Part shown: piece after piece, positions 128 to 41,338 of the stretch
How positions within the stretch are numbered: the stretch's first letter is position 1
Layout of the letters: each line of letters starts with the position of its first letter
NCBI GenBank assembly: GCA_020852815.1
Contig: JADZAN010000037.1
Coordinates: 1-41,465 of the forward strand
Length of the DNA: 41,465 nucleotides
Reading direction: 5' to 3'
Origin: Gemmatimonadaceae bacterium
Lineage (GTDB): Bacteria > Gemmatimonadota > Gemmatimonadetes > Gemmatimonadales > Gemmatimonadaceae
Made by a program: the position numbers and the translations under genes
Notes under the pieces: model-generated
The model's input: only the letters and a program-made list of their open reading frames with translations
What the model was told of the DNA's origin: nothing
Databases searched by the model: none

Positions 128-900
128 GGAGGCGCATGGAGGCTTACGGAGGCGCACGAAGGCGCACGAAGGCGTACGAAGGCGCACGAAGGCGCACGGA
201 GGCTCACGGAGGCTCACGGAGACGACACGGTGGCAAACGAAGAAATGCCACGACGCGCCGAACCCAGCCCCCACGCCCACCTTCCCAGCGAAAGCTGGGA
301 TCCATTTGTCCTCGACGCACGCGCGAAGAGCTGCCTCGGGCGTCCGTGATCGCAACAGCAAAAGCTCGACACGGAGGTTCACGGAGGAGACACGGAGGTT
401 CACGGAGGAGACACGGAGGTTCACGGAGGAGACATGGAGGAGACCAGGAGGCGACACGGAGGAGACATGGAGGAGACCCGGAGGCTCACGGAGGAGACAC
501 GGTGGCAAACGAAGAAATGCCACGACGCGCCGAACCCAGCCCCCACGCCCACCTTCCCAGCGAAAGCTGGGATCCATTTGCCCTCGACACACGCGCGATC
601 GGCTGCCTCGGGCGTCCGTAATCGCAACAACACAAGCTCGACACGGAGGCTCACGGAGGAGACACGGAGGAGACACGGAGGAGACACGGTGGCACACGAA
701 GAAATGCCACGATGCGCCGAACCCAGCCCCCACGCCCATCTTCCCAGCGAAAGCTGGGATCCATTTGTCCTCGGCACACCTGCGATCGGCTGCCTCGGGC
801 GTCCGTGATCGCAACAACACAAATTCGTCACGGAGGAGACACGGAGGAGACACGGAGGCGCACGAAGGAGTGCCGCGACGCGCCCTGATCCTCAACGCAA
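128..900 (+). repeat. Mosaic repeat block, left (direct CACGGAGG repeats plus three GNRA hairpin units)
   Basis: The block is built from dozens of imperfect 8-11 base direct repeats of the CACGGAGG / ACACGGAGGAG type. They are interrupted by three copies of a longer unit that contains the hairpin TCCCAGC-GAAA-GCTGGGA (at 283-300, 555-572 and 742-759). Each hairpin is followed by a conserved stretch of about 80 bases running through CTGCCTCGGGCGTCCGT to CGCAACA. Units 2 and 3 are nearly identical. Open frames of 120-290 codons cross the block on both strands, but they are Arg/Gly/His-rich repeat artefacts with no recognisable domain. I see no gene here. Confidence 0.85.
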
Positions 901-12650: not shown

Positions 12651-12921
12651 GATAACGCCCCTCCCCGCCCCCATCCACTCTGTTGCAACTCCAGCACACC
12701 CTCGTTTCTCTACCACCACCCCACGACCAACCCGTTCGAGGACCAAGGGGGAGAGCTTGCGGCCCCTCGCCCGTCAGCGGACCATCTCCCGGCTCACGCC
12801 CCTCGGAGATGGTGGTGGTCCCCGGCACCGCAGGCCGAACGAGATTGCGGGTGCGCGCATCGACGGCGGCGTTGAGCACGTCGCTCTCCGCCAGGAGGCG
12901 CGCCGGATGGCCCTTCGTCAT
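12651..12921 (-). pseudogene. Fragment of a paralogous unknown-function gene plus its 3' flank (copy 1)
   Basis: The minus-strand frame contains GHPARLLAESDVLNAAVDAR and then PGTTTISEGR, which aligns residue for residue with the copy at 30152-30816 (GHLARLLAGNEALNAAVDAR ... AGTTTISKGR). After that point, copy 1 jumps directly to sequence matching the 3' non-coding flank of copy 2 (CCGCTGA-GGGCGAGGGG, then CCCTTGG-CCTC, then TGTTGCA). So the C-terminal third of the gene has been deleted and the N-terminus is also missing. The intact family appears to be a Gemmatimonadota-type protein of about 170-200 residues without known function. Confidence 0.6.
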
Positions 12922-12941
12922 TCCTTCCGCCGCGAACTTTG

Positions 12942-16350: not shown

Positions 16351-16404
16351 AGTCGCTCCGGCGAAATCACCCGTTTGTACGTGCCCATCATCGAAACAGT
16401 GTCA

Positions 16405-16464
16405 GCCCAACGCTCAGCATCAGCGGCGGCGCGTAGTGCCATCTGCTGCATGCGGTTGTTAGAC
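16405..16464 (-). other. attC integron recombination site
   Basis: A 60-base site. Ends are GCCCAAC (16405-16411) and GTTAGAC (16458-16464), both exact fits to RYYYAAC/GTTRRRY. The inner arms are GCATCAGC and GCTGCATGC, which pair as GCAT-CAGC with GCATGCAGC and leave one unpaired G on the right-hand side. On the minus strand it reads GTCTAACAACC at the start and GCGTTGGGC at the end, the classic appearance of an attC. It follows the stop of the methyltransferase gene by 18 bases. Confidence 0.82.
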
Positions 16465-17286: not shown

Positions 17287-17309
17287 GTTGCGCTCCTCCT
17301 CTCGGCGCC

Positions 17310-17401
17310 GACTAACGCAAATGTTGGACTGCGCCGGATGAAATAGAGCGAGGGGAGCGAGAGCACGATAGCCCGACCGTGTGCCCCAACTACCGTTCGG
17401 C
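17310..17401 (-). other. attC-like recombination site (moderate)
   Basis: A 92-base site with GACTAAC (17310-17316) and GTTCGGC (17395-17401) as outer ends; each misses the consensus at one position. The left inner arm TGTTGGACTGCG pairs imperfectly with GTGCCCCAAC on the right. It lies five bases after the stop of the lipoprotein gene and 24 bases before the methyltransferase start, exactly where a cassette junction is required. Confidence 0.55.
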
Positions 17402-18253: not shown

Positions 18254-18317
18254 GCCTAACAACGCTACGGTTCAGCGGCGGGCCGCGCAGCGGACCGTCC
18301 GCTGCAACCGGTTGTGA
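18254..18317 (-). other. attC integron recombination site
   Basis: A 64-base site. GCCTAAC (18254-18260) is a perfect core (GTTAGGC on the minus strand). The inner arms GGTTCAGCGG and CCGCTGCAACC pair as GGTT-CAGCGG with GGTTGCAGCGG, leaving the single unpaired G on the right. The right outer end GTTGTGA is a weaker match. It closes the 8.4-kb restriction block. Confidence 0.82.
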
Positions 18318-18342
18318 TGGCGCGTTTCATCGCGTACCTGAT

Positions 18343-18576
18343 TCACTGACGACGCCTGCGGATACCGTTCACCCAGTTTTCGAGGGTCTCGATGTCGGCC
18401 TTGAGAGCACCAGGGTCAGGGATGTCCGCTCGCGCCGCAGCTGCCTGGTCATGGCCGGGAAGCCACCTGGAGCATTTCGTCATGGCCGCCTCTACGGTCC
18501 GGCAGTCTTCCGCTGTGATGTCCGCCATCTTGCCGATCTGCTGGGTCTGCACGCCAGGTCTATACCGCTCGACCAC
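18343..18576 (-). CDS. Small hypothetical protein after the RloC-like gene
   Basis: A 77-residue frame from a GTG at 18576 to a stop 23 bases before the attC. The C-terminal part, ADIETLENWVNGIRRRRQ, looks like a charged helix. The frame stays open for another 28 codons upstream (FYEREAWERGLEEVLLGGV) to a TGA at about 18662, just after the rloC stop, so the real gene may be longer and 5'-damaged. It has two cysteines and no known domain. Its position directly after the anticodon nuclease makes it a candidate regulator or immunity partner, but this is only positional. Confidence 0.4.
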   Translation of the reverse strand: MVERYRPGVQTQQIGKMADITAEDCRTVEAAMTKCSRWLPGHDQAAAARADIPDPGALKADIETLENWVNGIRRRRQ

Positions 18577-18671
18577 CCCACCAAGAAGGACTTCCTCGAG
18601 TCCGCGTTCCCATGCCTCACGCTCGTAGAATCTTCAATGCACGTCTCGGCTCCGCTTCTCGACGACAATGC

Positions 18672-20906
18672 TCACTCTTCACGCTCCGAGACGGATTCCT
18701 CTACGTACGCGTCTCCCATCATCATCCGATAATGTGCCCAGTGGTCCGATTTCCTGAAGATCTCCATGAAGACCTGTAAGTACACATCAACTGTCGCCTC
18801 AGCACTCGACACGAAGAGATCGTCCAGGGCATGATGAGAACCCGCGTTCACCCAAGAGAACAATGACTTGCAGATCAACTTCTCCTTCCCTTCGAACTTT
18901 GTGCAGATCTGGTCCGGATCAACCCCGCCCAGAATCTTGAAATAGTTCTCAAGAATTCGCCTGAGGGTATTCTGAATGGTCAGCGACGAGCGATTCGGAT
19001 TCCTCACTTCAGACCACAGCAATTCGTAGGAAGTCTTGATCGGATTGGTTGAATGACCGTCCAACATCGATACGGCTCCGGATTTTCTGGCTACCCAGAA
19101 GGTTTCCTCATTCATCGCCTGATCTTTGCTTCGCCTCGGGTTGAACGTGATTTCCCGGTGGAAATACACATTGTGGGTAAGAACGAAAACCTGCCTGACG
19201 TGCCCGGAGGCGCCACGGACTTCTTCGAACAGTCCTTTGATGAGGCTTCCCACAATGAACAGAATGTCGCTGTCGAGGCTCGACACGGGATCGTCGAACA
19301 CGACCACTCGATCGGCAGTCATGCCGCTTTCCTGGTGGCTCCCCTTCAACAGGTGGTAGAAATACAGGAAGGTGACGAAGTTCTTCTCGCCTTCGCTTAA
19401 CGTGGTCTTGGCATCGGTACCATCCTGACGAACCAGCTTGTAGGAGGTGCCGTTCGCTGCCTTGGCCAGCGCAAAGGCATGGAAGCCAAACGAGGACAAC
19501 AGAGCGTTGATTGCGTTGATCGTCGGCTGAACGCTTGTTGTCTGTTTCTCCAGGTTCTGTATCTCAGTGGTTTTCTGGCTCCTCTCTTGAGTTGCCGTCG
19601 CGATCTGGTCATTGAGGTTGGATATGGCTTTGCTCAGCCCATCTTTCGCCGTCTTGAACGCTGCGAGGTCGGTTTTCAGTTCTTCAAGCACGAACCTCCA
19701 TACCTGTGCTGTCAGCGATTTGCGCTCCGCCCCCAAGTTGGCAACCATTCTGTTATGGTCCGCAATACTGCTGTTTGCAGAGTCGATCAACGCTGTGACC
19801 GCCAATGCGACGCTGCCGAGCGGTTCCAACTCAACTACCTGACTTGCCTCCTTTTTCTTTCCCGCGAGGCGCTGATTATTGAGCGTGATCTTTGCATCAA
19901 GCAGCTCCTTTTCGGACTTCAGCTTCTCGACGTCGAGGAACCTGGATGGCGATCCGATAATTGCCGCAAGCTGTTGCTGAACACGTTCGGACTCGGTTGT
20001 ATAGTTGATTACGAGACCGTCAATCGCCTTGCTGTCCGCCGTGAACGTCTCGTCGAAGTACTCGTTCAGACTCCGAGCAAACGATTCGTCCGTGCTTTGC
20101 TGACAGAACGGGCACGTCCGATCATTGACTTCGTAGAACGAACGCCCTTGTTGGACCCAGTCGCTGTTTCCCAGTCTTGTGATCATTGCGGCGATATCGA
20201 CATCATCCTTGCCAATCACCCGCTTCTTCAGAATGGGATTCCCTTCATGGGCCAGGAGGTTGCTCGTGTCGATAGAGGCAATCGTAGGTTCGGTGGTGGG
20301 AGTTTGACCGAAGATGGTTTCGGCCTTCTTCTCCAGGTCCGCCAGCGGCTGGAGGGCGGCCTGATTGGAGCCTGATTCCTGGAGAACTTTAGTCTTGAAG
20401 TTCTCCGCTTTGTTCCGATACCCCTCGAAGGCACCCTGGAGTTTCGCATCGTGCTTCTGTTTCTGCGCCCAGCATTTGGCCTTGAAGCCATTTTCCAGGG
20501 TGGCAAGCTCACCCGTCTTGCCACCGGCGCCGTCATCCCCACGAAGGGTACGGGTCAGGTTTTCTATCGTTGCCGTGAGTTGATCACGCTCGGTTTTTGC
20601 CGCCGTGATCCTGGCAAGCGTTTCAGCTTGATCCTGGCCAAGCGTAAAGACGCCCTTCAGTTCGGTGGACTGATTGAAGTTCCGCTCCACGAAGTCGCTG
20701 TTGTACACCAACGCTTGCAGCTTCGTGCCGCCCTTCCACGTCGTTTGACAGGTCGGATAAGCGGTTTCATCGGCAATGATACGACTGATCGTCGTCTTTC
20801 CGGAACCATTTGAGCCGTATACGTAATTGAACTGCGATAGGCCGGCCATCTCTACTGGTGTGTCGCCATAGGTAGCGACTTGGGCGATGCGGATGGACTC
20901 GATCAT
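18672..20906 (-). CDS. rloC: RloC-like anticodon nuclease (ABC/SMC-type ATPase with zinc-hook motif)
   Basis: A 744-residue protein. Walker A is GSNGSGKTT (31-39), then a long coiled-coil region with a CPFC motif at 265-268 that resembles the zinc hook of RloC and Rad50, then the ABC signature LSEGEK (503-508), Walker B VVVFDDP (534-540) and H-loop LTHN (576-579). The C-terminal domain keeps R649-x3-E653 and H691/H692, matching the Arg-Glu-His triad spacing of PrrC/RloC anticodon nucleases. In studied members the ATPase senses DNA trouble and licenses cleavage of tRNA at the wobble position. The length fits RloC. It overlaps the hsdMS stop by four bases (ATGA), so it is co-translated with the restriction system it backs up. 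Its DNA is visibly more AT-rich than its neighbours. Confidence 0.85.
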   Translation of the reverse strand: MIESIRIAQVATYGDTPVEMAGLSQFNYVYGSNGSGKTTISRIIADETAYPTCQTTWKGGTKLQALVYNSDFVERNFNQSTELKGVFTLGQDQAETLARITAAKTERDQLTATIENLTRTLRGDDGAGGKTGELATLENGFKAKCWAQKQKHDAKLQGAFEGYRNKAENFKTKVLQESGSNQAALQPLADLEKKAETIFGQTPTTEPTIASIDTSNLLAHEGNPILKKRVIGKDDVDIAAMITRLGNSDWVQQGRSFYEVNDRTCPFCQQSTDESFARSLNEYFDETFTADSKAIDGLVINYTTESERVQQQLAAIIGSPSRFLDVEKLKSEKELLDAKITLNNQRLAGKKKEASQVVELEPLGSVALAVTALIDSANSSIADHNRMVANLGAERKSLTAQVWRFVLEELKTDLAAFKTAKDGLSKAISNLNDQIATATQERSQKTTEIQNLEKQTTSVQPTINAINALLSSFGFHAFALAKAANGTSYKLVRQDGTDAKTTLSEGEKNFVTFLYFYHLLKGSHQESGMTADRVVVFDDPVSSLDSDILFIVGSLIKGLFEEVRGASGHVRQVFVLTHNVYFHREITFNPRRSKDQAMNEETFWVARKSGAVSMLDGHSTNPIKTSYELLWSEVRNPNRSSLTIQNTLRRILENYFKILGGVDPDQICTKFEGKEKLICKSLFSWVNAGSHHALDDLFVSSAEATVDVYLQVFMEIFRKSDHWAHYRMMMGDAYVEESVSEREE

Positions 20907-23404
20907 TGCACGCTTCTCTCCGGCTCCTCGCCCCAGATGCGGGCGAGGGTGGCCTGGATCTTCTCCTCCATGCGGGCGACGAGGTCGCGGTTGGCGGCGA
21001 CTAGCACCTGCTCGGCCTCGATCTCCGCGACGATGGTTTGCTGCGTGGTAAGCGGTGGGAGGGGGATTTCAACGGTCTTTAGAATCTCAATGTTGATGTT
21101 CTTCTGTGCCGATTGCGGGGCAACATCGTTGAGGTGCTGCTTCTTGGTACGCATAACGACTTCCAAGTAGCGGACGTCTGTCCCCGGTTTCGGAATCAAG
21201 GCGACCACGCTGTCGGGAAAACAGGACGGAAAATCGAGAACGGCGGTGTCCCCGATGTTCGCAGCAATCGTGATGACAACGACGGGCGGCTGGAAGAGCT
21301 TGCTCACGGAGAGACCTTCTTGGTTCAAGGTCTGCGTGAATGTGATCTTTCCACCGTTCGCGGCGCGAACCACATCGCCCGTCTGGATGAATGGATACTC
21401 GCCGCCGTAGAAGCGGGGCTCGTTTCTTGGTCGGTGCGAGAACTTACCTCGTTGGATGTCGCACGCCGCTTCTAGCGGCACCATCGGCCAGTCGGAGTGG
21501 ATGGGGATGTGGGGGCGGTAGTTGTCGAGGACGGCGCGGGCGCCGTCGATGACCTTCTGGTAGCCCTCGATCTCCGCCACAATCTCCTTCTGCACATCCA
21601 GCGGCGGAATGGGAATGTGGAGGTCCGAAAGAAAGCTTCTCGTGACTCCGCGTACTCCGATGCCCTGGGCGCTTTTTTCAACGACCTGAGCAATGTGGTT
21701 GGCCGCGACAAACAAGAACGCAGGCGCAAGGCGCTGATCGTCTTGAGAAACAAGGGCCGTGAGGTCTTGGTTGATAGCATAGTAATCGTCAGCGAATGCA
21801 TACTTCCCGACGGACACGCGAGTGATGATGATCGTTGAGCCCTTGGGTGCGACTCGCGTCGAAGTCTCTTGAATTGCCGCGTTCGAAATCAGTTCGAAAG
21901 CAGTGATATTCCCACGGTCGTCAATGTGCTTTGACGAAATCCATTTCACAGAGCCGTTTGTCCAATAGCGTTCGTTTTGTTTGGATGGAGTCGCTCCACC
22001 GATTAGGTCACACAGCTCACCAAGCGGTGCGGTCGGGAACGATAAGAGTCGTGTCCCATTCTCCCGATACCGCTCCCCGCACAGGTTATAGTCGTCGTTC
22101 GCTGCAATCTTCTCCTTCGGCACTACGAGCCCGAGCGTCGGCGTGAAATCCTCCACCGATTCCCGCGCGCGCAGGCGGCGCAGGTACTCGGCAATCTCGG
22201 CGCGGATCTGGGGCAGGTCGTTCCTGTCGATGGGGCGACGCTGGGCGCCGAGGTTGAAGCCGTCGTTCTCGATCTTGAAGAAGCCGATGCGGTCTGTCTG
22301 TTTCGCCAGCGCCTTGTCGAGAATCAGGATCGAGGTCTTGACGCCGGAGTACGGGTTGAACACGCCCGCCGGCAGCGAGACGACGGCGACGAGGTAATCC
22401 TCCACCAGCATCTTGCGCAGTTGCGTGTACGCGGTCTGGCTCTGGAAGATGATGCCCTCCGGCACGATGATGCCGGCGCGGCCGCCGGGCGTGAGGTGCT
22501 CGGCCATGTAGTCCACGAACAGCACCTCGCTGCGCTTGCTCTGCACACTGAAGCGGTTGTGCGGCTTGATGCCGCCCTTCGGCGACATGAACGGGGGGTT
22601 GGCGAGGATGACGTCGGCGTACTCGTTCCAGCGGTCCTGGCTGGTGAGCGTGTCGTACTCGTAGATGTGCGGGTCGGTGAAGCCGTGCAGGTACAGGTTC
22701 ACCAGCGACAGGCGCACCATGTCGGGCGAGATGTCGTAGCCCTTGAAGTTGGCCGCCAGCCGCCCGCGCTCGTCGGGCGTGAGCGTGCTGTTGCCGTCCT
22801 GATCGGTGTTGTCCTTGAGGATGTGCTTGAAGGACGAGATCAGGAACCCGGCGGTGCCGCAGGCGGGGTCGAGCACGGCCTCGGACTTCTTCGGGTCCAC
22901 TACCGCGACGATGAAGTCAATGATGTGGCGCGGGGTGCGGAACTGGCCGGCGTCGCCCTGGCTGCCCAGCACCGAGAGCAGGTACTCGAAAGCGTCGCCC
23001 AGGCGCTCGGAGTGGTCGTACTCGAACTCGTCGATGATCTTGAGGAAGGCCCGCAGCGTCTCCGGGTCGCGGTAGGGCAGATAGGCGTTCTTGAAGATGT
23101 CGCGGAAGAGCGGCGGGATGCCGGGGTTCTCCGGCATCTTGGCGATGGCCTCGGCGTAGAGGTTCAGGGTCTCGTGGCCGCCGAGCCCCGAGCGCATCAG
23201 CTTCGCCCAGCCGTAGCGGGCGTAGCCGTTGGCGAAGAACTTGCGGCTGCCGCCCAGCTCCTCGGCCTCCAGGTCCATGTCGTCCATGAACTTGTAGATC
23301 AGCGCGATGGTGATCTGCTCGACCTGACTCTTGGGGTCGGGCACCTTGCCCACGAGGATGTCGCGGGCGGTGTCGATGCGGCGTTTGGTGTTGGTGTCGA
23401 GCAT
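20903..23404 (-). CDS. hsdMS: Fused type I restriction methylase-specificity protein (HsdM-HsdS)
   Basis: An 833-residue fusion. Residues 1 to about 450 are an HsdM N6-adenine methylase: an N-terminal helical domain, motif I DPACGTAGFL (179-188) and motif IV NPPF (269-272). From about 465 the protein continues as HsdS-like sequence with two target-recognition regions, the first starting APLGELCDLIGGATP, the second WPMVPLEAACDIQRGKFS, each ended by an IPIPPLDVQKEIVAEIE or IPLPPLTTQQTIVAEIE helix motif. Type I systems usually encode M and S separately. The two halves of the bipartite target and methylation of adenine are inferred. It overlaps rloC by four bases and starts next to the yhcG remnant. 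Confidence 0.92.
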   Translation of the reverse strand: MLDTNTKRRIDTARDILVGKVPDPKSQVEQITIALIYKFMDDMDLEAEELGGSRKFFANGYARYGWAKLMRSGLGGHETLNLYAEAIAKMPENPGIPPLFRDIFKNAYLPYRDPETLRAFLKIIDEFEYDHSERLGDAFEYLLSVLGSQGDAGQFRTPRHIIDFIVAVVDPKKSEAVLDPACGTAGFLISSFKHILKDNTDQDGNSTLTPDERGRLAANFKGYDISPDMVRLSLVNLYLHGFTDPHIYEYDTLTSQDRWNEYADVILANPPFMSPKGGIKPHNRFSVQSKRSEVLFVDYMAEHLTPGGRAGIIVPEGIIFQSQTAYTQLRKMLVEDYLVAVVSLPAGVFNPYSGVKTSILILDKALAKQTDRIGFFKIENDGFNLGAQRRPIDRNDLPQIRAEIAEYLRRLRARESVEDFTPTLGLVVPKEKIAANDDYNLCGERYRENGTRLLSFPTAPLGELCDLIGGATPSKQNERYWTNGSVKWISSKHIDDRGNITAFELISNAAIQETSTRVAPKGSTIIITRVSVGKYAFADDYYAINQDLTALVSQDDQRLAPAFLFVAANHIAQVVEKSAQGIGVRGVTRSFLSDLHIPIPPLDVQKEIVAEIEGYQKVIDGARAVLDNYRPHIPIHSDWPMVPLEAACDIQRGKFSHRPRNEPRFYGGEYPFIQTGDVVRAANGGKITFTQTLNQEGLSVSKLFQPPVVVITIAANIGDTAVLDFPSCFPDSVVALIPKPGTDVRYLEVVMRTKKQHLNDVAPQSAQKNINIEILKTVEIPLPPLTTQQTIVAEIEAEQVLVAANRDLVARMEEKIQATLARIWGEEPERSVQ

Positions 23405-24040
23405 CTATTTCAGCTTCTTTCGTGTCTTCGTTGAGCGTCCGCGTTCCGTGATTCCGCGGCGCTCCAGCATCGCCCGCGTCTTCTGCAGGTCAGCCGCGAT
23501 CAGCTTTTCGTCGGGCAGGAACGTACGGTACTCGGTAGCGAGGACCTTGTTCGGCAGGTTACCGAGCGCGTACCGGGCCAGGGCTTCGTCCTTCTGGGCG
23601 CAAAGGATCAGACCCACCGGCGGATTCTCTCCGTCGTGCATCCAGTGTTCTGTCGCGTAGGATCGCTGGGTTGCGGGCGCGCGCCCTTCGCGAGCATCGC
23701 CGACTTGTTCCGAGAGAGGGCCGTGCGTTCGTAGAACTGGGACTGGATCTGGCGGTCGAGCTGACGCACGGACCAGCCGGCGCGCAAGGCTTCGGTCTCA
23801 TAGAAGGTCCTGGCGTGCTCGTTGTCGAGTGCCAGAAGGCGAACGTACGCTGACCAAGGCAGTGGAAAGCTAGCGGCGATCGGGACCAGGTCGGATTCTG
23901 CAGACACCGTCTGCAGAGTCGGCCAGGCCAAGTAGAACGCCTTCATCTGCCAGACGTTGCGAACGGAGAAGCCACGGCCGGAGCGAGGGGATCGACGGCC
24001 TTCGCCTGCCTCACGGTGGCCTTGCGTTTCGCGCCCATGG
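23405..24040 (-). pseudogene. Broken YhcG/DUF1016 PDDEXK nuclease gene
   Basis: Two pieces of a YhcG-family (DUF1016) protein remain. The N-terminal piece (about 24005-23682) reads GRGFSVRNVWQMKAFYLAWP, FPLPWSAYVRLLAL and FYETEALRAGWSVRQLDRQI. The C-terminal piece (23641-23405), in another frame, reads GENPPVGLILCAQKDEALAR and ALGNLPNKVLATEYRTFLP. The roughly 100-residue middle with the PD-(D/E)XK catalytic core is missing at 23640-23682, and the first residues before GRGF are frameshifted. Such genes often accompany type I restriction operons, and this one sits between hsdR and hsdMS, where an intact copy was presumably once co-transcribed. It is not expected to make a functional nuclease. 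Confidence 0.85.
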
Positions 24041-24046
24041 ACCCTC

Positions 24047-26587
24047 TCACGTGGCGAACTGGTTGAGGGATACGTAGTCCTTGACGTACTCCGGCACGAG
24101 CGTGCGGAACGGCTCGGGCACGGCGCGGAAGTCGCGGGTCGAGAACACGGGGTTAGTGGCCAGATCGGTGAACTGGCGCTGGTCGATGATGTCGCGCACG
24201 CGCCCGCTGGTGACGTAAGCCTTGAAGTAATGCTTGATCGCCGGTATCGCCGACGGCGGCTCGGGCACGTGGTCGGCGACGAACTTGGCGAACTCCTCTT
24301 CGAGCAGCTCGTCCTTGCTCTTGAAACGCGGGATCAGGCCGAAGACCTTCTCCAGGATCTCGCGCAGCGCGATGCGTCGGTCCACGGCGGCGGCCTTGCG
24401 CAGCTTGTCGAGGCTGTAGAATTCCTCGGGCTTGTCGAAGACCTCGCGGTTGACGTAGTCGATGACGCGATCCCACTGGCCGGCCTCGACGGCGGCGGCA
24501 ATGATCGGATCTTCACGAACGGTGTCTTCGAAGCGCTCGAAGAACATGCGGTCGATCTTCATGCCTTCGTAGCCGATCGTCTCTTCCCGCACGGACGCGA
24601 GGATGTCGGCGCCGAGGTGTTCGTACGTGCCCTCGTACACGACAGGCCCGGTGCCACCATCCTCTTCGCGCGGCTTGTCCGTCGGGCGCGGCAGCTTCAG
24701 CACCTCGTCGTAGTTGAACTCGTCCTCGAAGTACTCGCAGTTGGCGAAGAAGTCGAAGAGCTTGAAGGCGGTCTTCTGCGGCTGAGCGATGCTCTCGCGC
24801 AGCGAATCGTCGAACAGTTGCTCCAGGAAGTTGTGCTTGCGCGTTCCGCGACCGTTGATCTGGATGAAATCCGTGGGCGAGAAGATAGGGCGGAACAGGC
24901 CGAGGTTGAGGAGGTCGGTGCAGTCGTAGCCGGTGGTCATCATGCCGACCGTCACGCAAACGCGCGCCTTACTGGTCTTGTAGGCCGGGATGAAGTTGCC
25001 GGAGCCGAGCAGGTTGTTGTTGGCGAAGTTGATGGTGAACTGTTGGGCATCGGGCACCAGTGACGTGACTTGCACGGCGAAGTCGGACTGATACTTGCCC
25101 GGAAACATGCGGTCCGCGATCAGGTTGAACATCTGCGCCAGCTTGGCCGCGTGGTTCTGGCTGACCGCAAAGACGATGGACTTGCCGATCTCGCTGCTGA
25201 CGGGATCACGCAGGGCGTTTTCGAGATAGGTCTTGCAGAAGACGGCATTGGTGGCGTCGGAGAAGAAGCGCTTCTCGAACTCGCGCTGCTTGAAGGCCTC
25301 CTGCTGGTCTTCGCCGGTGTCATCGGTGAAGGAGACGATGAAGCCCTCGTCGGAGAGCAGCTCGGTGGTGACTTCCGTTCGCGCGTCCACCACCGTCGGG
25401 TTAATCAGGTAGCCGTCCTTCACGCCGTCGAGCAGGGAATAGCGGAAAGTCGGCTGCCCGCTCTCGCAGCCGAAGGTGCGGTAGGTGTCGAGAAGCAGGC
25501 GGCGCTCGGCCTCACGCGGATCTCGGGTGCCAGGGTTGTTCGCGTCGAAGCGACGGAGATAATCGCGAGGCGTTGCGGTCAGGCCGAGCTTGTAGCCGAT
25601 GAAGTAGTCGAACGCCGCGCGCGCATTGCCGCCTATGGAGCGGTGAGCCTCGTCCGAGATCACGAGGTCGAAGTCGGTCGGCGAGAAGAGGCGCTGGTAC
25701 TTGTTGTTGAAGAGCAGTGACTGCACCGTCGTGACCACGATCTCGGCGCGACGCCAGTCGTCGCGGTTCTCCTTGTAGATCACGGTCTGGAAGTCGGCCG
25801 ACAACAGCGCCGCGAACGCCTTCTTGGCCTGGTCTTCCAGTTCGAGACGGTCCACAAGGAAGAGCACGCGCCGGGCGTTGCCGGTGCGCAGGAAGAGCTT
25901 CACCACGGCGGCGGCGGTGAGCGTCTTGCCGGTGCCCGTCGCCATCTCGAACAGGAAGCGGTCCTTCCCGTCGCGAATGGCTGCCTGGAGTCGATGGATG
26001 GCGTTGAGCTGATAGGGGCGGAGGAATCGCAGCTTGTTGGCCTGGACGTACGCGGACCGCTCCGCCTCGTTCTTCCATCCGGCCTCGGACTGGTACGTCG
26101 GGCGCTGGCTCAGCGCGATGTAGTCGTCGGCGACGTGCTCGGCGATCAGGCTTTCCGGATTCGGCGTTACCTGCTTGTAGCCGGTTACCGAGTCAGGCGT
26201 CGGGAACGAGGTGATGACGTAAGGATTGCCGCGCTCCAGGTCCCAGAAGTAGTGCAGGTTGCCGTTGGAGAGGATGACGAAGCGACAGTTCTGCGAACGG
26301 GCGTACTTGCGGGCCTGTTCCTTGCCGACGAGCGGGTCTTTGTCTTCGGCCTTGGCCTCCAGAACGATCAGCGGGAAGCCGCGGGCATCGAGCAGGAGAA
26401 AGTCGACGAATCCCCGCTCAGCCTTCTCGAAGTTCTCGCCGAGCGAGTCGAGGTCGGCGGCCTTGATGGCCACGGTGGGCTCAAGCCGGATATTGGCCGG
26501 GCCGCTGCCGTCCGGGAAGAAGCGCCAGCCCGCTGCTTCGAGCAGCTTGTTGATCCTGATGCGGGCGGTGGCTTCCTTCTCGGACAC
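24047..26587 (-). CDS. hsdR: Type I restriction endonuclease R subunit (EcoEI-like)
   Basis: An 846-residue motor-nuclease subunit. The nuclease core has FVDFLL (D62) and LEAK (E77-x-K79), a PD-(D/E)XK site. The translocase has Walker A ATGTGKT (216-222), DEAH (312-315), LTATPRD, and later helicase motifs including TTGYDCTDLLNLG and QINGRGTRK. The C-terminal region holds the HsdM-contact domain found in EcoEI-type subunits. It would translocate and cut unmethylated DNA in complex with HsdMS. The start is 37 bases inside the integron-type boundary at 26630, so the promoter of the whole operon should lie in or next to the attC or upstream cassette. Confidence 0.94.
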   Translation of the reverse strand: MSEKEATARIRINKLLEAAGWRFFPDGSGPANIRLEPTVAIKAADLDSLGENFEKAERGFVDFLLLDARGFPLIVLEAKAEDKDPLVGKEQARKYARSQNCRFVILSNGNLHYFWDLERGNPYVITSFPTPDSVTGYKQVTPNPESLIAEHVADDYIALSQRPTYQSEAGWKNEAERSAYVQANKLRFLRPYQLNAIHRLQAAIRDGKDRFLFEMATGTGKTLTAAAVVKLFLRTGNARRVLFLVDRLELEDQAKKAFAALLSADFQTVIYKENRDDWRRAEIVVTTVQSLLFNNKYQRLFSPTDFDLVISDEAHRSIGGNARAAFDYFIGYKLGLTATPRDYLRRFDANNPGTRDPREAERRLLLDTYRTFGCESGQPTFRYSLLDGVKDGYLINPTVVDARTEVTTELLSDEGFIVSFTDDTGEDQQEAFKQREFEKRFFSDATNAVFCKTYLENALRDPVSSEIGKSIVFAVSQNHAAKLAQMFNLIADRMFPGKYQSDFAVQVTSLVPDAQQFTINFANNNLLGSGNFIPAYKTSKARVCVTVGMMTTGYDCTDLLNLGLFRPIFSPTDFIQINGRGTRKHNFLEQLFDDSLRESIAQPQKTAFKLFDFFANCEYFEDEFNYDEVLKLPRPTDKPREEDGGTGPVVYEGTYEHLGADILASVREETIGYEGMKIDRMFFERFEDTVREDPIIAAAVEAGQWDRVIDYVNREVFDKPEEFYSLDKLRKAAAVDRRIALREILEKVFGLIPRFKSKDELLEEEFAKFVADHVPEPPSAIPAIKHYFKAYVTSGRVRDIIDQRQFTDLATNPVFSTRDFRAVPEPFRTLVPEYVKDYVSLNQFAT

Positions 26588-26623
26588 TCAGTCTCCTCGT
26601 TCAGCGATCATGGTAGTCAAGCG

Positions 26624-26723
26624 GCATAACGCCCGAGTTCACCTGCAAGGGAATCAGACAAAAGCGCGTGGCGAAGCCACGCGCAATCCTCAGTTCCCGT
26701 GTCAGGCGCAACGATCGTTATGC
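26624..26723 (-). other. attC integron recombination site
   Basis: A 100-base site with GCATAAC (26624-26630) and GTTATGC (26717-26723) outer ends. Inner arms GTTCACCTGCAAGGGAA and TTCCCGTGTCAGGCGCAAC pair as GTT-CACCTG with GTTGCGCCTG, with the extra G on the right. The centre folds on its own: GCGCGTGGC-GAA-GCCACGCGC (26664-26684). It separates hsdR from the GHKL-peptidase gene. Confidence 0.8.
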
Positions 26724-28205: not shown

Positions 28206-28239
28206 AAAGAGGGGGTGCCTAAAGTGAGCTCGTGTTGCC

Positions 28240-28337
28240 GTATAACGCTCAAGTTCAGCTGCATGCGAGCCAGATAGGTGCGCATGCGGAGCATGCGCAA
28301 TCGTCAAATCGCTTGCCGGCTGCAACGATCGTTACAT
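28240..28337 (-). other. attC integron recombination site
   Basis: A 98-base site with GTATAAC (28240-28246) and GTTACAT (28331-28337) ends. Inner arms GTTCAGCTGC and GCCGGCTGCAAC pair as GTT-CAGC with GTTGCAGC, with one extra G on the right. The centre is the hairpin GCGCATGC-GGA-GCATGCGC (28280-28298), followed by CAATC as in the site at 26624. It ends the zinc-ribbon/TM cassette. Confidence 0.8.
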
Positions 28338-30151: not shown

Positions 30152-30816
30152 CTACCGGCGCCGCCCCACCCTCCACCACCCCACTCTCCCCAACCGCTTC
30201 GCCACCAACCCCGCGTTGCGCTCCCCATCATTGGCGCGGATCAGCGGCATCACCAACGAGTCGAGCAGCTTGAGCAACCGCACGGCGCGCCGCCCTTTGG
30301 AGATGGTGGTGGTTCCCGCCGCCACCCACTGCACGACGTTGCGATCTCGCGCATCGACGGCAGCGTTGAGCGCTTCGTTCCCCGCCAGCAGGCGGGCCAG
30401 ATGACCCTTCGGCAATCCGGCCGCCACCAGCTTCTCCTCGAACGGTTTGGCGGTGTCGTGGAAGCCCCGCGCCGCGGTGACGAGCCCTGCAGGTTGTTGG
30501 ACCGCGGAAGCTTGAGCGACACCACGGCCGGAACTCCCGCGGTTTCCGCGAACGGCGCCACGGTCCTCACCGGGTGCACCACGGGGCGCTGCTGGTCGTT
30601 GCGCAACGCGCGCGCGCGCACGCGCATGCTGTCGGTCCCCATCAGCGCCTCGCGCGCGTGACGGTCCTGCTGCGTCGCCTCCTCGGTCATCCGCGCAATC
30701 GTCGACTCCAACTCGGCGAAGGCGGCGACGAGCGCCGGCTCCTCAGCCATGGGCGGAAGGAAGTCGCGGACGCGACGGAGTGCCTGCAGGCGGTTCTTCT
30801 CCGGCTCGGCCGCACC
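30152..30816 (-). pseudogene. Frameshifted unknown-function gene (copy 2 of a paralogous family)
   Basis: The N-terminal part (30816 to about 30500) reads EKNRLQALRRVRDFLPP, then ELESTIARMTEEATQQDR and LPRSNNLQG. The C-terminal part in another frame (about 30497-30152) reads LVTAARGFHDTAKPFEEKLV, GHLARLLAGNEALNAAVDAR and RAVRLLKLLDSLV. A one- or two-base shift near 30497-30505 joins them into one protein of about 215 residues that lacks a start codon after the stop at 30817-30819. The helical, repeat-free pattern matches a family I associate with Gemmatimonadota and with transposon-like expansion; no function is known. The second fragment at 12651-12921 is its paralog. Confidence 0.6.
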
Positions 30817-40737: not shown

Positions 40738-41338
40738 TCGTCGTTTCGAGAAGCTTGACACGGAGGTACGCGGAGGGCACACGGAGGTGCGCGGAGGAGA
40801 CGCGGCGCAGGCACAGCGGAGACACAGCGGAGGCACGGCGGAGGCACGGCGGCAACAACACAAGCACGACACGGAGGCTCACGGAGGAGACACGGAGAAG
40901 TCCAAGAGCACGACACGGAGGCTCACGGAGGAGACACGGAGGTAAACGGAGGAGTGCCGTGACGCGCCGAACCCAGCCCACACGCCCACCTTCCCAGCGC
41001 AAGCTGGGATCCATTTGTCCTCGACATACTCGCGATCGGCTGCCTCGGGCGTTAGTGATCGCAACAACACAAGCACGTCACGGAGTCTCACGGAGGAGAC
41101 ACGGAGAAGTCCAAGAGCACGACACGGAGGCTCACGGCGGATGCACACGGAGGAGACACGGAGGCGCACGAAGGAGTGCCGTGACGCGCCGAACCCAACC
41201 CCCACGCCCACCTTCCCAGCGAAAGCTGGGATCCATTTGTCCTCGGCATACTCGCGATCGACTGCCTCGGGCGTCCGTGATCGCAACAACACAAGCACGA
41301 CACGGAGGCTCACGGAGGAGACACGGAGAAGTCCAAGA
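40738..41338 (+). repeat. Mosaic repeat block, right (two GNRA hairpin units)
   Basis: Same family and orientation as the left block: CACGGAGG direct repeats and two hairpin units at 40992-41009 (loop GCAA) and 41214-41231 (loop GAAA), each followed by the conserved CTGCCTCGGGCG tail. A short GAAGTCCAAGA segment before the element boundary recurs three times in the block. Long open frames across it are repeat artefacts. The block ends abruptly at the mobile-element boundary at 41338/41339. Confidence 0.85.

Follow-up and report, generated by a model that had tools for sequence, protein, structure and literature searches.

The window analysed here is an entire contig, C37 (41,465 bp), of a 5.38-Mb Gemmatimonadaceae genome in 47 contigs. 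Within an array of attC recombination sites, two neighbouring sites enclose 8.4 kb of DNA that carries a type I restriction-modification operon together with a gene for a RloC/PrrC-like ATPase, and we propose that the two sites bound one integron gene cassette of exceptional size (Table 1). The R, M and S subunits are all present, with PD-ExK-like, GTGKT, DEAH and NPPF motifs in the translations, and the closest solved structure to HsdR is 3H1T; the predicted function is type I restriction-modification defence. Type I restriction-modification operons with PrrC/RloC anticodon-nuclease-like partners combine hsdR, hsdM and hsdS with an AAA_13 ATPase gene. The window has the same gene set, but its HsdM and HsdS are fused and its operon lies between attC sites. 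The genes abut or overlap, by 4 bp in the case of rloC and hsdMS. A CXXC motif (CPFCQQ) was spotted by eye in the RloC-like protein, for which a comparison with NCBIfam gave nothing above cut-off.

Two of the elements in the interval are remnants. A YhcG homologue is open and full-length in the related operon L022, and the window copy is degraded. Behind rloC lies a stretch matching the end of the RloC-like gene of an Acidithiobacillus operon (L053), which is open over 869 amino acids; most likely, to judge from this DNA match, the present rloC replaced an older one and left its C-terminal end as a scar. An initial annotation had listed hsdR, a yhcG remnant, hsdMS, rloC and a small open reading frame. 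The first four hold, and the last is the tail of another RloC-type protein and not an independent gene.

Two models were used to locate attC sites, both trained mainly on one bacterial family. Model R1 was built on an alignment of eleven sites from the window and contig C18 of the same genome, and model R2 on 35 attC from other loci, none of them in the window. Since the R2 training sites had been gathered with R1, which included window sites, the independence of R2 from the window holds for sequence but not for design. All six attC that R2 finds in the window are on the minus strand, and the interval from 18256 to 26623 contains no further one, which bears out the earlier claim of strong sites at both ends with nothing between them. 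Across all 47 contigs (E≤1e-5), R2 matches are confined to C37 and C18, so false positives are rare. C18 encodes the single integron integrase of the genome above the family cut-off (IntI, 393 bits), with an attC array next to intI. The site at 18256 has a single-strand fold z-score of -4.6 and is short (60 nt), where host array sites are commonly 95 nt. Compared with neighbouring cassettes of about 0.9-1.6 kb in the window, and with sites on C18 that mostly stand 0.4-1.5 kb apart, a unit of this size is a clear outlier.

Table 1. Features of the proposed cassette and of the neighbouring array in the window
Feature	Position	Strand	Evidence
attC, first detected of this array segment	29270-29364	-	R2 E=6.4e-18
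attC upstream in array	28239-28337	-	R2 E=5.2e-15
attC of preceding cassette; R' GTTATGC (26630-26624) forms the 5' junction of the proposed large cassette	26623-26723	-	R2 69.9 bits, E=3.8e-16
Proposed whole cassette, 8,367 bp, made up of 42-nt leader, operon and 3' attC; bounded by G|TT crossovers	18263-26629	-	
Leader TTATGCCGCTTGACTACCATGATCGCTGAACGAGGAGACTGA, with AGGAG ribosome-binding site; precedes hsdR GTG	26588-26629	-	
hsdR, 846 amino acids	24047-26587	-	Pfam ResIII/HSDR_N; PD-ExK-like (FVDF..LEAK), Walker A and DEAH motifs from translation
YhcG/DUF1016 remnant; N-terminal part and central/C-terminal region gone, frame broken	23608-23946	-	DUF1016_N partial
Fused hsdM-hsdS, 833 amino acids, two target-recognition domains	20903-23404	-	Pfam N6_Mtase and two Methylase_S stretches
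RloC/PrrC-like AAA_13 ATPase, 744 amino acids	18672-20906	-	Pfam AAA_13 E=1.5e-187; PADLOC candidate PDC-S06, 973 bits
Putative C-terminal scar of older rloC allele	~18341-18600	-	74% DNA identity over 274 bp to end of L053 gene
3' attC of the proposed large cassette, short 60-nt type; R'' CCATCAC in register	18256-18322 (R2 match 18256-18317)	-	R2 E=6.3e-8
attC of next, normal-sized cassette; outside every training set	17309-17401	-	R1 E=2e-8, R2 E=1.1e-9
Further downstream attC	16404-16464	-	R2 E=1.5e-7

The 5' edge was examined in an alignment of upstream regions, 400 bp ahead of hsdR, from the window operon and 67 other loci, 68 in all. The operon leader, GTTATGCCGCTTGAC, whose first bases are also given as TTATGCCGCTTG, recurs in other genomes, and in these the homology starts no more than one base from the G|TT crossover, beyond which the upstream DNA is unrelated. 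Counted from the hsdR start, a scale on which the G of G|TT occupies -43, homology with the window starts at -43 in L022 and L023, at -44 in L020 and at -42 in L053. These four loci and a fifth, L094, have the breakpoint 26630/26629 in common; the leader itself is shared by L094, L023 and L053 and altered in L022 and L020, in the latter being partial. A homology break at the crossover, with unrelated DNA upstream in each case, matches what is predicted for the 5' end of a cassette. Homologues with identical flanks continuing past the site, which the initial annotation had held to count against a cassette, were not found on the 5' side: no window alignment extends beyond -48 at any of the 67 other loci save L094, where it enters another attC.

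L094 belongs to a genome of the same family but another genus (G039), and its contig reads intI, four attC, then the leader and an hsdR whose product shares 84% amino acid identity with that of the window. The attC bodies upstream of the two operons differ, and the sequences become identical from R' onward, CGTTATGCCGCTTGACTACC. A separate contig of this genome, C328 (L107:5996-6681), opens partway through HsdS, in its C-terminal half, with attC downstream; it is not joined to the L094 contig and is probably the far end of that array's operon.

At the 3' edge, the window attC and the attC behind the related operon of L021, from the Acidobacteria, are identical at 54 of 59 bases, the best of 465 pairs formed among 31 attC, a set from which some C18 sites were left out. 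The two operons nevertheless carry different genes between hsdM-S and attC. R'' of the L021 site, GCATAAC, is the exact complement (7/7) of the conserved leader start GTTATGC, so that the two would be the arms of one site in a free circle. L021 has lost its own leader start, its match to the window setting in at -19, and the pairing is therefore one across genomes. From the standard L'-to-R' spacing and the L021 alignment, we place the 3' crossover of the window at G18263|T18262. The initial annotation, by which both edges fit cassette rules, had set the 3' crossover three bases on and had counted 37 bases, not 42, ahead of hsdR.

L020, a related operon from a Deltaproteobacterium, stands alone between chromosomal genes as a leader-to-attC unit of 8,157 bp, and its R'' pairs 6/7 with its own leader. 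Cassettes can insert at genomic attG sites (Loot et al. 2024, as cited in PMC12901181). L020 likewise has the look of a lone cassette inserted after G|TT at an attG-type site, but differs from the insertions as described there in being a multigene unit of 8.16 kb, and its use of an attG site is suggested by the comparison.

We put the probability that 18263-26629 is a single cassette at roughly 0.87, because both attC sites are present, the 5' breakpoint recurs, the 3' attC is shared with another phylum, and the leader and hsdR start stand in an intI-proximal array of another genus. The layout also agrees with that of a cassette on several points. The genes and the 18256 attC are on the minus strand, with the site 3' of the genes in their own orientation, the attC ahead of the unit supplies the G|TT for its 5' edge, the same genome encodes an integrase, on C18, and the unit recurs in an array of another genome, for its 5' half, in L094. 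Its 8,367 bp fall outside the known range of about 0.5-2 kb, a size that is customary and not defining. We propose a model where an integron integrase most likely recombined the whole unit as one circle through its attC, like any cassette. With a ribosome-binding site and little promoter room in the 42-nt leader, transcription would come from outside it. The system would restrict unmodified phage DNA, with the RloC-like protein perhaps serving as a back-up. As the second and last gene slots vary among copies, cargo is swapped within a conserved frame of leader, hsdR, hsdM-S and attC. The second slot, which holds the yhcG remnant in the window, is occupied by a KilA-N/RhuM-type gene at L053:3979-4812, L020:9165-9998 and L023:3510-4343, and that of L053 is PADLOC candidate PDC-S22.

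The initial annotation had weighed a giant multigene cassette against an operon that invaded the array, and the evidence from both edges favours the cassette. Entry of the operon into an existing cassette or array by another route, such as homologous recombination, transposition or a defence-island mechanism, with the two attC merely flanking it, would account for homologous operons being common outside detectable arrays, including on E. coli plasmids (65.6% HsdR identity), and for inner slots that clearly recombine. Such an entry would not be expected to end at an attC crossover in several genomes and unrelated contexts, however, nor to bring along a 3' attC that travels with the operon between phyla, as in the Acidobacteria; no ends but attC were seen, though no search aimed at transposase genes was made. 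We regard this route as improbable. Still less likely is that the interval comprises at least two ordinary cassettes whose internal attC have decayed past recognition, so that it is not one mobile unit. The rloC scar and the yhcG remnant do speak of past internal rearrangement, and in G039, too, no clear attC follows hsdMS for 1.4 kb, but the gene ends in the window overlap or abut, and no attC-like match lies inside. L020 and L021 likewise have one attC behind several genes. The leader might, finally, be conserved as an ancestral regulatory region of the operon and not as a cassette edge, given that parts of it, CCGCTTGACCACC, are retained in L076 and L053, where no attC was detected in either. 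This we consider very improbable, since conservation stops at the crossover TT with unrelated DNA directly upstream, and since the match of the L021 R'' to the leader is what a cassette circle requires.

Several observations weigh against the single-cassette reading. The L094 contig stops within hsdM, which leaves only its 5' half visibly connected to an array and no direct link for the 3' edge. R1 and R2 detect no attC at L053 and L023, both of which have the leader, and most of the 80 homologous operons are without attC by these models, though these are trained mainly on one family. In the window itself R'' (CCATCAC) carries two substitutions relative to GCATAAC, one of them in the AAC core, and pairs 5/7 with its own leader; the present mobility of the site is therefore uncertain, and it may be weak. 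Nor was a clean empty array found among relatives, in which the flanking multicopper oxidase has matches of 42-44% in two same-genus genomes and a best match of 69% in another genus.

The wider distribution of the operon was traced through its homologues, with 80 loci from many phyla kept of 578. HsdR is rare in the host family (2 of 179 genomes), and a phylum-wide search for it yielded one more genome, G203, where attC were detected neither in the 5.5-kb locus nor in the genome as a whole (E≤1e-5). The HsdR tree places the window in a clade of six, supported at SH-aLRT 97, and five of these carry attC or the leader. The attC/leader label changes 4 times over the tree, against 7.8 in shuffles, and none of 500 shuffles was as low. 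L094 branches elsewhere, which means that at least two lineages have the leader in common. The operon family is not integron-bound overall; one or more of its lineages travel as cassettes. Candidate attC in L028, L082 and L035 (R1/R2) were too weak and were not used.

Cassettes are usually pictured as one promoterless gene of 0.5-1 kb. Anti-phage systems are known from integron cassettes, in the chromosomal integrons of V. cholerae and V. parahaemolyticus and in mobile integrons (review, PMC12409362). Those are similarly attC-bounded units with defence genes in chromosomal arrays, but they typically hold one open reading frame, occasionally more, whereas the window unit would hold a whole type I restriction-modification operon and an ATPase gene in 8.4 kb. 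Restriction-modification genes also occur as cassette cargo in Xanthomonas integrons (PMC12444791); the passage on these names the system just as restriction-modification and describes none that unites the genes of a type I operon in a single cassette. In the open-access literature, outside which most subscription papers lie, our searches turned up no complete type I operon described as one cassette.

An 8.4-kb operon cassette would amount to about a fourfold rise in known cargo capacity. The standard survey rule joins attC within 4 kb, chosen as twice the largest annotated cassette (PMC8352920; a 4-kb limit also in PMC9668308), which puts the largest at about 2 kb. Such a rule would split or drop units like this one, and giant cassettes could be routinely missed. 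We lean, by a narrow balance, towards a broader picture in which integrons across phyla carry full 6-8 kb multi-gene defence operons as giant single cassettes, with a conserved frame and exchangeable slots, in arrays and at lone sites, overlooked since pipelines break arrays at 4 kb. A multi-subunit restriction system would then join the integron's tradable defences, and the limit on the size of cassette that IntI can move could be tested concretely on this unit.

Elsewhere in the host genome, on C18 (156341-163433; L010, L011), about 7 kb with genes for an ECF sigma factor, a TPR kinase and an RCC1-repeat protein lies between two attC, possibly as another large unit, or else as chromosomal DNA. 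In a genome of the same genus, G158, attC matches are spread across at least six contigs and form no single array. One tandem-repeat family occurs at both ends of the window (207-866 and 40916-41338), so that C37 is either circular or broken inside a dispersed repeat. A 143-bp direct repeat, 77% identical, flanks the array region at 12797-12939 and 30291-30433.
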